From: Thioalkalivibrio sp. ALJ24
GTDB lineage: Bacteria; Pseudomonadota; Gammaproteobacteria; Ectothiorhodospirales; Ectothiorhodospiraceae
DNA: 64,000 nt
Reading direction: 5' to 3'
Assembly (NCBI RefSeq): GCF_000377785.1
Contig: NZ_KB898728.1
Coordinates: 180,473-244,472, forward strand
Shown: one piece after another, positions 53,323-60,515 of the stretch
How positions within the stretch are numbered: position 1 is the stretch's first letter
Layout: every line of letters begins with the position of its first letter
Translations under genes and position numbers: made by a program
The notes under the pieces: model-generated
What the model was told of the DNA's origin: nothing
The model's input: the letters and a program-made list of their open reading frames with translations, nothing else
Databases searched by the model: none

Positions 53323-54156
53323 TCATTCAGTGGCTCCCTGATCTTCGGCCCTGGATGATGCCGATTTGTCGGGAGGAGGAAACGCAGAGACGATTCCATC
53401 CACATGCTCATTCAGGTCATCGGAGACAGACTGCCACATCGGATCCACGAGAAATTCGATACCCTCTCGGCGGGCCAGTTTCGCTGCCGGAACGAAATCG
53501 CTGTCCCCAGTCACCAGCACGATGGTATCCGCCTGTTTTTTCAAAGCCAGGCTGGCGATATCCAGCCCGATGCGCATATCAACGCCCTTCTGTCGAAGCT
53601 CAAGGCCAATATGCCTTTCTTCCAGCTCATTCCACGTCGCGAGCACCCTGTTGAGCTGCGCGAGCTCGTCTGCAGAGAGCTGTGGAGGGGCATCGCCCTC
53701 GATAACCGTTTCCTCCAGGACCTTCATCCACTTCTGAGTCTTCAGGAGCTTTTTAGTCAGGGCAGGGCTGATCTGCCAATCGGATGTCTTCTGTACTGTC
53801 CCCAGCCTCAACGCGAATTTCCGTTTCTTGCGTAGCTGGGAGAACAGCTCACGGCGAAAGGTCGCGGTTTCCGTCTTTCCGTAATCAATGCGCCGATTGG
53901 CCAGCGGATGGTGACTTGTGCCGTCGTAAGGCTCTGCATCGTAGAAAAAAAGGCGGTAGACCTGATCCAGCCACACGCCGTCAGCCTCATTCTCATCGGA
54001 ATGGATCAGTTTCTGGACATGACGTTTGCAGAGATGGCGCGCACTGTCAGCAACCGCTTCCGGGGAATCACAGAACTGCAAACCGACCAGCCTTGGTAGC
54101 CGTTTGATGAAGAAGCCACCGTCAATGAGGATTGCGATCCGTCGCACTCGAGTCAT
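53323..54156 (-). CDS. NYN-domain protein (LabA-like, putative RNase)
   Basis: The 277-residue protein has a NYN/PIN-like nuclease fold: RIAILIDGGFFIKRL at the start, MRIGLDIASLALKK in the middle and VTGDSDFVPAAKLARREG later, giving the Asp positions for metal binding. A Lys/Arg-rich insertion (LRKKRKFALRLG) could bind nucleic acid. ATG 54156 fits the family start; a longer upstream reading is unlikely. Base composition is lower in GC than neighbours, hinting at transfer. It may degrade RNA in stress or defence (inference). Confidence 0.87.
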   Translation of the reverse strand: MTRVRRIAILIDGGFFIKRLPRLVGLQFCDSPEAVADSARHLCKRHVQKLIHSDENEADGVWLDQVYRLFFYDAEPYDGTSHHPLANRRIDYGKTETATFRRELFSQLRKKRKFALRLGTVQKTSDWQISPALTKKLLKTQKWMKVLEETVIEGDAPPQLSADELAQLNRVLATWNELEERHIGLELRQKGVDMRIGLDIASLALKKQADTIVLVTGDSDFVPAAKLARREGIEFLVDPMWQSVSDDLNEHVDGIVSAFPPPDKSASSRAEDQGATE

Positions 54157-54264
54157 GTTCTTGTCCCTCAGAACGAAAAAAGCCTCCGGCTTTCGGCACA
54201 CGCTCAGGATGGGGGAGCGGGCGTACTCGCAGGAGGCGGATAACCATCATCGTCGACCAACGGT

Positions 54265-56998: not shown

Positions 56999-57358
56999 TC
57001 ATTCTGCACACCCCGATCTCGCTCCGCTCGCTCGCACATTGACACGTGTCACGTGATGCGAGACGTCCGTGCCATGATCAAGACCCTCGCGGATACGGGG
57101 GTGGGAGGCGTCGGGCATGCGGCAGCTCGGTGGAAAGCGCTCCAGTAGCGACACCGCGTCGCCGATGGCGGTTCGCGCATGGGCCGCGGACGCCAGACCG
57201 CGCGCCAGGCACTCGGCCCGGGCCTGTCGGCGGTCAATCTCGTGGCGAACGGCATCCTCGATAAAGGCCGACAGCGTTTCTCCCTCGCCAAGGGCCTGCT
57301 CCACCTGATGCCGAAAACCATCACTGACCCGCAGGGCCGGTAACGTCGTGTTTTTCAT
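56999..57358 (-). CDS. Orphan antitoxin-like protein with extended C-terminus
   Basis: The first ~75 residues (KNTTLPALRVSDGFRHQVEQ, then GETLSAFIEDAVRHEIDRRQ and ARGLAS) match small ribbon-helix-helix-type antitoxins of the YlcI/YnfO kind. After SLLERF the sequence continues for ~45 residues without family resemblance. This suggests a lost stop or a frameshift joining non-coding sequence. No RelE/ParE-type toxin gene lies on either side, so the module looks decayed. GGAGACG precedes the ATG at 57358. Confidence 0.65.
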   Translation of the reverse strand: MKNTTLPALRVSDGFRHQVEQALGEGETLSAFIEDAVRHEIDRRQARAECLARGLASAAHARTAIGDAVSLLERFPPSCRMPDASHPRIREGLDHGTDVSHHVTRVNVRASGARSGCAE

Positions 57359-57720
57359 GCCGCGTCTCCAGAAGGACCTTCTCGGACTGCATCGCAAATG
57401 GAATACAGCGCCCATCAGTGGACCCGTCCGCGCCGCTCGTCTCCATAGTCCACTGGGCTTACCCTGCAGGGCATGTCCCCGATGCCACGCCGTGGCCTAC
57501 CCACTGCAGGAGACCAGCCTCCTGGCCGATCAGACGCGTCCAACACCCCATCGCCCAGAGGGCTTGGCTCCCGATTTGATCGACCTGTTAACGGTTGGCT
57601 GTACCGTTCGATCGAGATCTGACACGTATCCTGCGGCCTTGACCGGCGTTGTGCCGGTATTTGGGGCTGACCGAGTCCGGTACGATGCCGGCAGGCAAGA
57701 ACGGAACAGGCGGGGGATCG
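57359..57720. other. Intergenic stretch without a convincing gene
   Basis: This 362-base gap has lower GC than the rest. GATCGA (57578-57583) and TCGATC (57608-57613) flank inner arms ACGGT (57591-57595) and ACCGT (57603-57607); the spacing is asymmetric. An open frame on the plus strand (57348-57728) is Pro/Arg-rich and resembles translated non-coding DNA. It should contain the promoter of the MazG/helicase pair. Confidence 0.5.
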
Positions 57721-58089
57721 ATGAGTAAGGAGTCACGCACCTCAACGGAGCTGGACGATCTGGCGGGCCGCCTGGAGGCGTTCGTTCGGGAGCGCGACTG
57801 GGAGCAGTTTCATTCGCCGAAGAACCTGTCGATGGCGCTTGCGGGCGAGGTGGGAGAGTTGATCGAGCACTTCCAGTGGCTGACGGAGGAACGGTCTCGT
57901 GAGCTGTCGGATGCGGAGCGGGAGGCCGTTCAGGCAGAAATCGCGGACGTGCAGATCTATCTGCTGTTGCTGGCGCGGGGGCTGGGAATCGACGTGGTTC
58001 AGGCAGCGAACGAAAAGCTGAACGTGAACGAGCAGAAGTATCCGGTCGACAAGGCGCGGGGCAGTGCGCGCAAGTACACGGATCTGTAG
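57721..58089 (+). CDS. MazG-like nucleotide pyrophosphohydrolase
   Basis: The 122-residue all-helical protein has the MazG/dCTPase metal motif EVGELIEHFQW followed by EIADVQIYLLLLARGLG, that is ExxE(12-28)ExxD. Such proteins hydrolyse (d)NTPs to monophosphate and pyrophosphate. The ATG at 57721 follows GCGGGGG; upstream codons in the same frame are not family-like. It is 17 bases before the nuclease-helicase gene, so the two form one operon. It may deplete or clean nucleotide pools when the partner is triggered (inference). Confidence 0.88.
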   Translation: MSKESRTSTELDDLAGRLEAFVRERDWEQFHSPKNLSMALAGEVGELIEHFQWLTEERSRELSDAEREAVQAEIADVQIYLLLLARGLGIDVVQAANEKLNVNEQKYPVDKARGSARKYTDL

Positions 58090-58106
58090 CCGAAAGGCAA
58101 GTCACG

Positions 58107-60515
58107 ATGCTGATCTATACCGCTGACAAGCGCCATTTCGTCGAGCATGTCCGGCACAACCAGATCGAGGATCGGATCCTCGCCGGGATGCTGGGCGCCG
58201 GCAAGGGCAAGCCCTCGCCCAACGAGATCACTTCCTGGCGCAACTCGATGCAGTACATGGAGAACGTGCTCAGCGCATCGGGGATCCCGGATGACGCCGG
58301 CGTCGCCATCGAGTACATGATCCCGCAGACCTCCAAGCGGGTGGACTTCATCCTGACCGGACGCAACGACGATGGCCGGGATACGGCGGTGATCGTCGAA
58401 CTGAAACAGTGGGAGCAGGTCGAGGCGACCGAGAAGGATGCGATCGTGCGTACGTTCGTAGGCGGCAAGGAACGCGAGGTGACGCATCCTTCCTACCAGG
58501 CGTGGTCGTATGCGGCGCTGCTGGAGGACTACAACGAGACCGTGCAGACCGACGGTATCGGGCTGCATCCCTGTGCCTATCTCCACAACAGCGTGTCGGG
58601 CGCGATTTCCGATGCGCGCTACCACGAGCACCTGGAGCGCGCGCCGGCCTTCCTGAAGGCGGACGCCGAGAAACTCGCCCGTTTTCTCGGCCAGCATGTG
58701 CGCAAGGGGGATACCAACGACATCCTCTACCGGGTCGAGCATGGCCGGATTCGCCCCTCGAAGTCGCTCGCGGACCATCTGGCGTCGCTGCTCGAGGGGA
58801 ACGCCGAGTTCGTGATGGTCGACGACCAGAAACTGGTCTTCGAAAGCGCGCTGGAGCTCTCCGACATGGCCGAGGGACACGGCAAGCAGGTGCTGATCGT
58901 GGAGGGCGGGCCGGGAACCGGGAAATCGGTGGTGGCCGTGAACCTGCTTGGAGAGCTGACCCGCCGCGGAAAGGTTGCACAGTATGTGACCCGCAATGCG
59001 GCCCCGCGGGAGGTCTATGAGGCGAAATTGACCGGGACGATGAAGAAGAGTCGCATCAGCAACCTGTTCCGTAGCTCCGGTGCATTTCACGAAACCGACA
59101 CGGACACCTTCGACACCCTGCTGGTGGACGAGGCACACCGCCTGAACGAGAAGTCGGGGCTTTTCCAGAACCTGGGAGAGAGCCAGACCAAGGAGATCAT
59201 CAACGCGGCGCGCACGGCGGTGTTCTTCCTGGACGAAGATCAGCGGATTCACTGGAAGGACATTGGATCGCGGGAGGAGATCGAGCGCTGGGCACAGGCA
59301 GAGGGCGCTACCGTGCACTACGCCGAGCTTCGCTCGCAGTTCCGTTGCGCCGGGTCTGACGGCTACCTGGCCTGGCTGGATCAGGCGCTCCAGATTCGCG
59401 AGACGGCAAACGAGGATCTGGATGAACTGGACTATTCGGTCGAGGTCGTCGACTCACCAACCGCCATGCGCGACCGGATCTTCGCGCTGAACGTCCACGC
59501 CAACCGTGCGCGGATGCTCGCGGGCTACTGCTGGGACTGGGATAGCAAGAAGGACGCGCAGGTCATGGACATCCGCTTTCCCGAGCACAATTTCGCCATG
59601 CAGTGGAACCTCGACAAGGACGGTCACACCTGGATGATCCAGCCGGACTCGGTCCACCAGATCGGCTGTATCCATACCAGTCAGGGGCTGGAGCTGGACT
59701 ATGTGGGCGTAATCATCGGGCCCGACCTGATCGTGCGGGACGGCAAAGTGATCACGGTGCCGGAAGCACGTTCGAAGAATGACGCCTCCATCAAGGGCTA
59801 CAAGAAGGCCCTGAAGGAGGATCCCGATGCGGCCCGAACCAAGGCCGACAGAATCATCAAGAACACCTATCGCACGCTGATGAGCCGCGGGATGAAGGGG
59901 TGCCTCATCTGGTCGGCGGATGCGGAGACGCGCGCCTATTTCCGCGCGCTGATCGGCCAGCACACGCCCGAGCCACAATCTGCCCCGACGGAGGCTGCAC
60001 CGGCGGATGTCCTGCCGTTCGAGAAGATGGCGCCGGAGGAGGTCGAGCCATTCGTGAATGCGTTGCCGGTGGTGCCGATCAAGGCGGCGGCGGGCAGTTT
60101 CAGTGACCTGCAGACCGTGGACCAGAACCCGGATGCATTCGACTGGGTCATGCCCCCGGACTTCATTACACCCCAACCGGGGATGTTCATCGCCCAGGTG
60201 TTCGGCGAGTCAATGAACCGCCGTATCGCGAACGGGGCATGGTGTCTGTTCCGGGCGCCGGGCGGCGGAACGCGCGAAGGCAAGATCGTGCTGGTGCAGC
60301 ACCGCGACATCAATGACCCGGACACCGGCGCCAGCTTTACCATCAAGCGCTATCACAGCGAGAAGACGGTGGACCCGGACACTGAGTGGCGCCACCAGCG
60401 GATCATGCTGAAACCGGATTCCAGCGTCCCCGGCTACGAGCCCATCATCCTGGAAGAGGACAGCGCGTCCGAACTGGTCGTGGTCGGCGAGTACGTCGCC
60501 CAACTGGAACATTGA
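58107..60515 (+). CDS. PD-(D/E)XK-like / DUF2075 helicase / S24 (LexA-like) fusion
   Basis: The 802-residue protein appears to join three units. Residues 1-200: a likely PD-(D/E)XK nuclease with Asp80 (KRVDFIL), Glu98-x-Lys100 (VIVELKQW) and a QxxxY-like motif at 131-135. Residues 220-620: a DUF2075 superfamily 1 ATPase with Walker A GGPGTGKS (267-274), DEAH (341-344), LDEDQR and HTSQGLELDYVGVIIG. Residues 650-802: a LexA/S24 domain with Ala662-Gly663 as potential self-cleavage bond, Ser702 in FGESMNRR and Lys747 in FTIKRYH. The spacings (39 and 45 residues) approach those in LexA. It is co-operonic with the MazG-like gene. The nuclease call is from motifs only. Confidence 0.88.
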   Translation: MLIYTADKRHFVEHVRHNQIEDRILAGMLGAGKGKPSPNEITSWRNSMQYMENVLSASGIPDDAGVAIEYMIPQTSKRVDFILTGRNDDGRDTAVIVELKQWEQVEATEKDAIVRTFVGGKEREVTHPSYQAWSYAALLEDYNETVQTDGIGLHPCAYLHNSVSGAISDARYHEHLERAPAFLKADAEKLARFLGQHVRKGDTNDILYRVEHGRIRPSKSLADHLASLLEGNAEFVMVDDQKLVFESALELSDMAEGHGKQVLIVEGGPGTGKSVVAVNLLGELTRRGKVAQYVTRNAAPREVYEAKLTGTMKKSRISNLFRSSGAFHETDTDTFDTLLVDEAHRLNEKSGLFQNLGESQTKEIINAARTAVFFLDEDQRIHWKDIGSREEIERWAQAEGATVHYAELRSQFRCAGSDGYLAWLDQALQIRETANEDLDELDYSVEVVDSPTAMRDRIFALNVHANRARMLAGYCWDWDSKKDAQVMDIRFPEHNFAMQWNLDKDGHTWMIQPDSVHQIGCIHTSQGLELDYVGVIIGPDLIVRDGKVITVPEARSKNDASIKGYKKALKEDPDAARTKADRIIKNTYRTLMSRGMKGCLIWSADAETRAYFRALIGQHTPEPQSAPTEAAPADVLPFEKMAPEEVEPFVNALPVVPIKAAAGSFSDLQTVDQNPDAFDWVMPPDFITPQPGMFIAQVFGESMNRRIANGAWCLFRAPGGGTREGKIVLVQHRDINDPDTGASFTIKRYHSEKTVDPDTEWRHQRIMLKPDSSVPGYEPIILEEDSASELVVVGEYVAQLEH

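Follow-up and report, generated by a model that had tools for sequence, protein, structure and literature searches.

The 64,000-nucleotide stretch of Thioalkalivibrio sp. ALJ24 analysed here (contig NZ_KB898728.1, positions 180,473 to 244,472; hereafter the window) carries on its plus strand a two-gene operon, in which a gene for a MazG-like, DCTPP1-like nucleoside triphosphate pyrophosphohydrolase (57721..58089) is followed after 17 bases by a gene for an 802-residue protein (58107..60515) that joins an N-terminal PD-(D/E)XK-type nuclease domain and a Schlafen group 3 (SLFN-g3, DUF2075) helicase domain to a C-terminal S24 domain of the LexA type. Our preferred reading, held with somewhat better than even confidence and drawn from sequence and predicted structure, is that the pair forms an anti-mobile-element nuclease-helicase cassette with a RecA-type self-cleavage switch, which would more probably turn the enzyme off than on.

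The source genome has 2.8 Mb, and the closest named kin at this locus are other Thioalkalivibrio strains (85-86% protein identity). The MazG-like protein has 122 residues when counted from the ATG at 57721, while its open frame extends back to a TTG at 57649. The first-pass annotation, made from the letters of the window and their translations, had described this operon with its 17-base gap, and both open reading frames as well as all of its residue numbers (D80, E98, K100; GGPGTGKS 267-274; DEAH 341-344; A662-G663; S702; K747) proved correct.

The LexA-type tail and the enzymes that carry it

The tail comprises residues 651-800 (60057..60506, +). Searched as part of the whole protein, it matched the Peptidase_S24 family (PF00717) with E 2.1e-4 and 21.4 bits, under the family cut-off of 23.3; searched alone, it reached E 5.9e-6 (26.4 bits), and the family was matched by 18/18 aligned tails. 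A profile of the tails aligned with the LexA of the same organism (probability 95.6 and E 1.1e-8 by hhalign), and its only sequence match in the PDB at E <= 0.01 was LexA (1jhe, E 0.0048), the VAA|G site of which falls on the tail cleavage site in the alignment. The predicted cleavage bond A662-G663 (codons gcg|ggc, 60090..60095, +), the predicted nucleophile S702 (60210..60212, +) and the predicted general base K747 (60345..60347, +) are all kept, as A-[AC]|G, Ser-Met and T-[VI]-K respectively, in 29/29 tails by pattern; a 30th (L134, from a viral contig) read by eye has the same site and dyad. Counted among the 29 are the tails of L007, L024 and L108, whose genes are split, and those of L104 and L080, which lie at contig ends and have a chassis that is at best guessed; one fragment (L029) and three copies (L048-L050) of L003/L004/L014 are left out. 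The S24 domain with its Ser/Lys dyad and Ala-Gly bond, as described in the first-pass annotation, is thus upheld in the homologues, and chance is excluded as an explanation of the domain and its residues.

The tail is under purifying selection (ratio of nonsynonymous to synonymous rates, dN/dS, 0.07-0.08 for the window against two sister strains; Nei-Gojobori estimates, with high dS). It is preceded by a fast-evolving linker (residues 617-650, 59955..60056, +), with dN/dS of 0.24-0.48 over 617-645 and pLDDT below 50 at 619-634. A module that served for docking alone would hardly keep its Ser/Lys pair and scissile bond invariant, so cleavage itself appears to be selected. The likeness to LexA, UmuD and CI extends to the (A/C)|G site, Ser-Met, T-[VI]-K and the profile match. 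On the other hand, the window tail ends an enzyme: the N-terminus is occupied by the nuclease-helicase and has no DNA-binding repressor domain. In a copy on a Halomonas megaplasmid (L108, 11920-14387) the gene is split near the linker into two frames (686 and 159 aa), by either a sequencing error or a real break.

The same S24 tail was found on three chassis, namely PD-(D/E)XK-SLFN, GIY-YIG-SLFN and the type I restriction subunit HsdR. Three proteins (L099, L100 and L102) agree with the window protein in helicase family and tail but have another N-terminus, to which the window nuclease part fails to match. For L100, Pfam gave GIY-YIG (E 7e-4, below the cut-off), SLFN-g3_helicase and Peptidase_S24, and the other two were read as GIY-YIG by eye. 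The tailed HsdR (L103:221-3784, -; 1188 aa) has HSDR_N, SWI2/SNF2, T1R_D3-like and S24 domains by Pfam and is encoded with HsdS, HsdM and an ATPase gene. A 1200-aa protein on a viral contig (L134:1848-5447, +), assigned to the HsdR type through its close resemblance to L103, bears the same C-terminal S24 tail and adjoins PtuA/PtuB (Septu). Such a distribution over several kinds of nuclease suggests that the tail is a built-in DNA-damage switch for these enzymes.

When mapped on a tree of 37 PD-type cores, the presence of the tail requires four changes (gains or losses), of which at least two are forced by well-supported branches. It is rare, being found in 5/398 genomes of the phylum at E <= 1e-12; the search for the tail returned one plasmid record (Halomonas) and one viral contig (the HsdR-type protein), and none in phage records. 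Our alignment A1 omits the broken, truncated or mis-started L007, L018, L024, L027 and L029, as well as the loci from genome searches.

The putative nuclease domain spans residues 1-235 (58107..58811, +) and is supported by its motif, its model and the structural matches of the latter. The motif residues D80 (58344-58346), E98 (58398-58400) and K100 (58404-58406, all +) are invariant in 30/30 aligned N-terminal sequences, and fall in strands 78-86 and 92-100 of a structure model with pLDDT 90 and pTM 0.86. In a second look with VIA-align, the best match was Can2 (Z 8.6, rmsd 3.7, 138 residues), and 2/999 chains reached Z >= 8, where a best Z of 7-8 is typical for models without a clear match. 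As this is barely above background, the weight falls on the agreement among the matches and on the motif being in place. Most of the matches are PD-(D/E)XK enzymes, among them Can2, Cdn1, Card1, EndoMS, BsoBI, McrBC, NucC, Shedu, Hachiman and Cap4. Sequence-profile searches of the PDB with alignments A1 and A3 gave no match. The segment has a dN/dS of 0.07 (window against two sister strains).

The helicase domain (residues 260-605, 58884..59921, +) was assigned by the first-pass annotation to a DUF2075 ATPase, and it matched PF09848 (SLFN-g3_helicase) with E 1.9e-100 and 337 bits, against a curated cut-off of 24. Its Walker A motif GGPGTGKS (267-274, 58905-58928, +) and DEAH box (341-344, 59127-59138, +) are conserved, GGPGTGK and DEAH being invariant in 24/24 sequences (a first count omitted L035-L038). 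A structure search with the full-length model (pLDDT 79) was dominated by helicases. By VIA-align UvrD was best (Z 20), with SLFN11 and SLFN14 structures at Z 13.6-17.9; those at Z >= 17 extend over several domains, which raises their rmsd to about 16-17, and 9erd combines Z 16.6 with an rmsd of 3.8 over 270 residues. The dN/dS of this segment is 0.09 (window against two Thioalkalivibrio copies).

The MazG partner

The smaller protein matched PF12643 (E 2.9e-17), and its sequence contains E43-x2-E46 and E73-x2-D76, which we take to be the metal-site motif of MazG. Its best PDB matches were to dCTP pyrophosphatase 1 (DCTPP1, RS21-C6; E 1.1e-28), aligned over residues 11-122 of 122, so that it is predicted to be specifically a DCTPP1-like pyrophosphatase, differing from its structural relative in being bacterial and encoded beside a nuclease-helicase. 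Enzymes of the DCTPP1 type act on 5-methyl-dCTP, according to the available part of PMC10742078, and for MazG domains a role in defence has been predicted, though not proven (available part of PMC13092281).

A MazG gene lies within 800 bp of the nuclease-helicase at 29/46 loci, compared with 0/15 arbitrary 13-kb control stretches scanned with a MazG profile; 16 of the adjacent MazGs had themselves gone into this profile, so detection, as opposed to position, is partly circular, and the 46 loci include close relatives (four Thioalkalivibrio copies). The two frames touch or overlap in 15 of the 29 adjacent cases. The 29 come from bacteria of several phyla and from an archaeon, as well as from a phage record and a viral contig. 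Adjacency is alike at tailed (17/26) and untailed (12/20) loci, some copies being partial: MazG is broken or partial in L099 and L107 and cut by the contig end in L017, and short flanks at L026, L047 and L008 could conceal one. A tie of MazG to the S24 tail is therefore rejected; MazG belongs to the nuclease-helicase. The link of MazG to the system as such, also proposed in the first-pass annotation, is borne out in this narrower form.

Within the genus the pair occurs in more than one arrangement. In three sister strains MazG is downstream of and convergent to the helicase gene, and their flanks share nothing with those of the window except for one 67-base match in L004. In a tree of MazG proteins (24 cassette and 19 solitary sequences, not all 29 adjacent genes), those of the window and the sister cassettes fall among solitary copies instead of grouping together as a clade, the window MazG being closest to a solitary one (77% in the tree alignment). 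This implies that the pair was assembled repeatedly in the genus or that the helicase gene landed repeatedly beside a MazG.

A third gene family was observed beside some of the nuclease-helicase genes, downstream in L007 (5121-5984), L009 (9662-10375) and L010 (9514-10254) and upstream in L045 (8833-9636), with a weak fifth match in L011. Its viral copy gave no Pfam or PADLOC match and contains a zinc-protease-like HECGH motif not seen in the Verrucomicrobia copies.

Genomic setting and defence neighbours

The helicase protein is patchily distributed. It has a match in 5/30 genomes of the genus, one of them only a fragment at a contig end, and in the class a match of more than 600 residues in one piece was found in 4/274 genomes (12 with any match). 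Homologues also turn up in plasmids, phage records and viral contigs, and among close strains the cassette occupies different sites in different arrangements.

The window copy is surrounded by common chromosomal genes (SDR, Spy-like, TPM, GGDEF/EAL). Several of the genus loci compared hold relatives of its SDR, DUF, Spy-like and antitoxin genes, the Spy-like gene being matched in 16/30 genus genomes, and the GC content of the cassette (0.62-0.63) lies inside the range of the flanks (0.58-0.70). An accessory island around this copy, which the first-pass annotation had read from a flanking orphan antitoxin and an NYN gene, is thus unsupported; what stands of the idea of a defence island is the occurrence of defence genes near some homologues. 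The antitoxin gene itself (56999-57358, -) runs, by eye, into a ParE-like toxin remnant and looks like an eroded toxin-antitoxin pair; a relative in L066 (13099-13717) has apparently separate toxin and antitoxin open reading frames. The NYN-domain gene (53323-54201, -) strongly matches phrog_5783, a phage family of unknown function (E 1.4e-76), and its stretch has the lowest GC content within the last 14 kb of the window.

The PADLOC scan of neighbours took in genes coding for 100-1300 aa that lie no more than 5 kb from a tailed locus (24 loci, L103 being of the HsdR type), a 1146-aa protein of L005 (by its size) and the MazG of L012 itself being omitted; set A5 adds the tail-less L107, while the neighbours at the remaining tail-less loci were listed outside the scan. 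Strong defence genes were found at 6/24 loci: a type IV restriction enzyme (L006), IetA and IetS (L024), RhuM-type candidates PDC-S05/S23 (L101), two ThsB (L105), HsdM and SoFic (L106) and a DNA cytosine methylase (L030). Of 20 likely defence proteins picked by eye, 10 were compared at a threshold of E <= 1e-30 and 10 at one of E <= 1e-10; four had no PADLOC match (L006:540-1448, L030:2711-4192, L082:18185-19216 and L016:9416-10216), and L005:1547-3325 had only a weak one (3.6e-14).

Annotated plasmid and phage regions with relatives (8-12 kb flanks) name defence systems in 4/11 cases. On a Priestia plasmid (L113, 9612-17546) MazG and the helicase lie between ABC-three-component/DUF3578 genes and HsdM/HsdS; in a Methanosphaera region BREX-4 genes are found about 8 kb from the relative; and in Hymenobacter a restriction-methylation pair lies by the relative, with DruA about 6 kb away on another plasmid. 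At the Priestia locus no HsdR is listed with hsdM/hsdS, as if the nuclease-helicase served as the nuclease subunit. One Hymenobacter plasmid (L109, 10001-13987) has tandem DUF2075 nuclease-helicase genes beside a restriction-methylation pair and a DUF4747 gene.

The proposed switch, its rivals and its meaning

We propose that the gene pair is a compact cassette against phages or plasmids, in which the large protein would combine an ATP-driven DNA motor with an N-terminal PD-(D/E)XK nuclease and attack foreign or aberrant DNA. Its DCTPP1-type partner would hydrolyse dCTP or modified dCTP and thereby either starve replication or prevent invading DNA from taking up modified cytosines that protect it. 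The LexA-type domain would be a self-cleaving switch that responds to DNA damage post-translationally: once docked on a RecA filament on single-stranded DNA, it would be cleaved at A662-G663, and the released core, ending LexA-like in ...AAA, would be recognisable by ClpXP and the enzyme turned off. Self-cleavage would thus amount to a built-in restriction alleviation, shielding the host chromosome during repair.

As to the direction of the switch, taken by itself, off is the leading candidate, at a confidence short of even; on is clearly less probable, and the rest falls to other outcomes. An off-switch is favoured because all three kinds of enzyme on which the tail was found are DNA-motor nucleases, which put a damaged chromosome at risk. 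It is further favoured because LexA cleavage reveals latent ClpX signals (available part of PMC10584840) and the predicted cores here end alike, with P3-P1 being [AVIM]AA in 24/29 tails, and because ClpXP already turns off the HsdR of EcoKI by degrading it in restriction alleviation, a degron having been sought and not found (available part of PMC4231737). The suggestion of the first-pass annotation that damage triggers self-cleavage, either freeing the enzyme or switching it off, is retained as to the intact site and dyad, and of its two predicted outcomes we lean towards the second.

A number of results weigh against this reading. A Foldseek search of the nuclease model against the PDB gave 0 matches at E <= 0.001, and the nuclease-like fold, placed by the first-pass annotation at residues 1-200 and towards which we lean for the agreement of the matches and the motif, has a best Z near the background level of the tool; over the S24 part the confidence of the full-length model is low to intermediate. 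The [AVIM]AA end may be conserved only for self-cleavage itself, and 5/29 predicted cores, all from Elusimicrobia, end in AAC. An adjacent MazG is missing at 17/46 loci, and in the genus MazG is present in 17/30 genomes, many more than have the helicase match, so that the pairing in the window alone would be weak evidence. No defence genes were seen among the flanks of the window copy, and 7/11 annotated plasmid or phage regions name no defence system (one is unannotated).

The same applies to the counts of defence neighbours. At E <= 1e-10 PADLOC matched at least 14/182 neighbour genes and at most 8/120 control genes, which are bounds only since its output counts families rather than genes; the 14 comprise 10 in set A5 (three from the restriction-modification operon of L103) and 4 in set A6, the metagenome-assembled loci of which have no control of their own. 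Counted by family, 248 were matched in 97 neighbour genes and 120 in 85, against 7 in the 120 control genes, an excess that is inflated because many models of one kind hit one gene (the three operon genes of L103 alone match up to 121 families). The controls were 15 stretches picked by round coordinates in six genomes, from which 120/173 genes were drawn at random. A gene-level excess is not proven; the difference from the controls is one of kind and strength (restriction, ThsB and IetAS against RtcR, dGTPase and similar genes).

Transcriptional control of the pair by the SOS response also found no support. The organism's own LexA gene is preceded by an E. coli-type box, CTGTaattatgaACAG, and no such box with up to one mismatch was found upstream of the pair (57301-58110), which likewise counts against our reading. 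Over the whole window, 8 LexA-box-like sites were found against 14.8 expected, and the other upstream regions scanned had a single one-mismatch site (L004, about 350 bases before mazG), which is about the chance level. SOS transcriptional control is accordingly rejected for the window, and any link to DNA damage must be post-translational, through the protein; only in the sense of post-translational cleavage does the "SOS-linked" label of the first-pass annotation remain.

The most serious rival, which we regard as unlikely, inverts the switch: the tail would hold the enzyme inactive until RecA filaments, formed upon phage replication or genome damage, release it for abortive infection, with MazG depleting dCTP. 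A cleaved core would look like the homologues that naturally have no tail, which are presumably functional and are common (20/46 loci), so that cleavage could equally activate; UmuD, an S24 relative, is activated by cleavage, and release had been one of the two outcomes named by the first-pass reader. On the other hand, the same tail is found on HsdR, the activity of which is already gated by DNA recognition, and the new C-terminus is like the degradable end of LexA in most of the tails.

Of lower probability, in our estimate, is that the protein is a host repair factor rather than a defence enzyme, acting on broken forks or recombination intermediates while MazG cleans the dNTP pool and the S24 domain times its removal. 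The LexA-type tail and the UvrD/SLFN-like motor would suit such a role, as would the ordinary flanks of the window copy and the unproven gene-level excess of defence neighbours, and DCTPP1-type enzymes do have a pool-cleaning role (available part of PMC10742078). However, the patchy distribution, the occurrence on plasmids and in phage records and viral contigs, the strong defence genes beside several homologues and the different sites and arrangements among close strains all speak against it.

Just as improbable, by our assessment, is that the S24 domain answers a cue other than RecA (a phage protein, a nucleotide or a stress adaptor) or cleaves in trans, in which case the link to DNA damage would be wrong. 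RecA dependence is the commonest trigger among characterised LexA/UmuD relatives, and every tail examined has the LexA/UmuD-like dyad and site; in favour of another cue are the missing SOS box upstream of the pair and the LexA-like IrvR, which is reported to depart from the RecA rule (available part of PMC7101444).

Finally, that MazG is incidental in the window genome, the helicase gene having landed beside a resident MazG, would agree with the solitary copies common in the genus and the closeness of the window MazG to one of them, but is quite improbable given that the adjacency recurs across bacterial phyla, in an archaeon and in phage and viral sequences, in 15 cases with touching or overlapping frames, and given the two arrangements with unrelated flanks in the genus.

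Nuclease-SLFN-g3 helicases are already represented in part by PDC-S41, a single-gene phage-defence candidate of PADLOC with a helicase of the same family and a comparable N-terminal region. The 802-residue protein matched it with E 1.2e-12, its best stretch covering only profile positions 18-279 of 657, and six tail-less relatives matched it with E 1.7e-10 to 2e-21. As a single-gene entry it is without MazG, its 657 positions correspond to a tail-less length, and PADLOC gives it no function. The window helicase part also matched Nhi (E 9.7e-11) and AbiO (E 1.7e-11), with best stretches only within residues 234-412. Nhi is a single-protein nuclease-helicase immunity system, and no S24 tail or MazG is known in either the Nhi or the AbiO systems.

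The resemblance to HsdR of EcoKI lies in the nuclease and motor sharing one chain, and tailed HsdR proteins do exist; unlike theirs, the motor of the window protein is of the SLFN-g3 kind and is not accompanied by HsdM/HsdS, and the degron of EcoKI is described as unidentified and is not said to arise by self-cleavage in the available part of PMC4231737. Human SLFN11 and SLFN14 share the Pfam helicase family by name and match in structure (9erd), UvrD scoring higher. The window protein differs from them in being prokaryotic and in its PD-(D/E)XK-type nuclease, and no Pfam match to the Slfn RNase core was found in the 802 residues at E <= 1. Among the matches listed in our literature search, which covered neither preprints nor many subscription journals, there was no publication on the S24-tailed forms or on the pair.

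More broadly, and only tentatively, we envisage a portable LexA-type fuse on at least three unrelated classes of DNA-motor nuclease, in which RecA-triggered cleavage would expose an [AVIM]AA end to ClpXP, with a DCTPP1-type enzyme as the partner of both Schlafen types. The recurrent pairing with a DCTPP1-like protein ties cytosine nucleotide chemistry to the nuclease-helicase. DNA-translocating nucleases must be kept off the damaged or recombining chromosome of their own host, for which EcoKI uses ClpXP (available part of PMC4231737). A nuclease carrying its own LexA-type switch would make this control of a nuclease by DNA damage testable with single-residue mutants (S702A, K747A and changes at G663).

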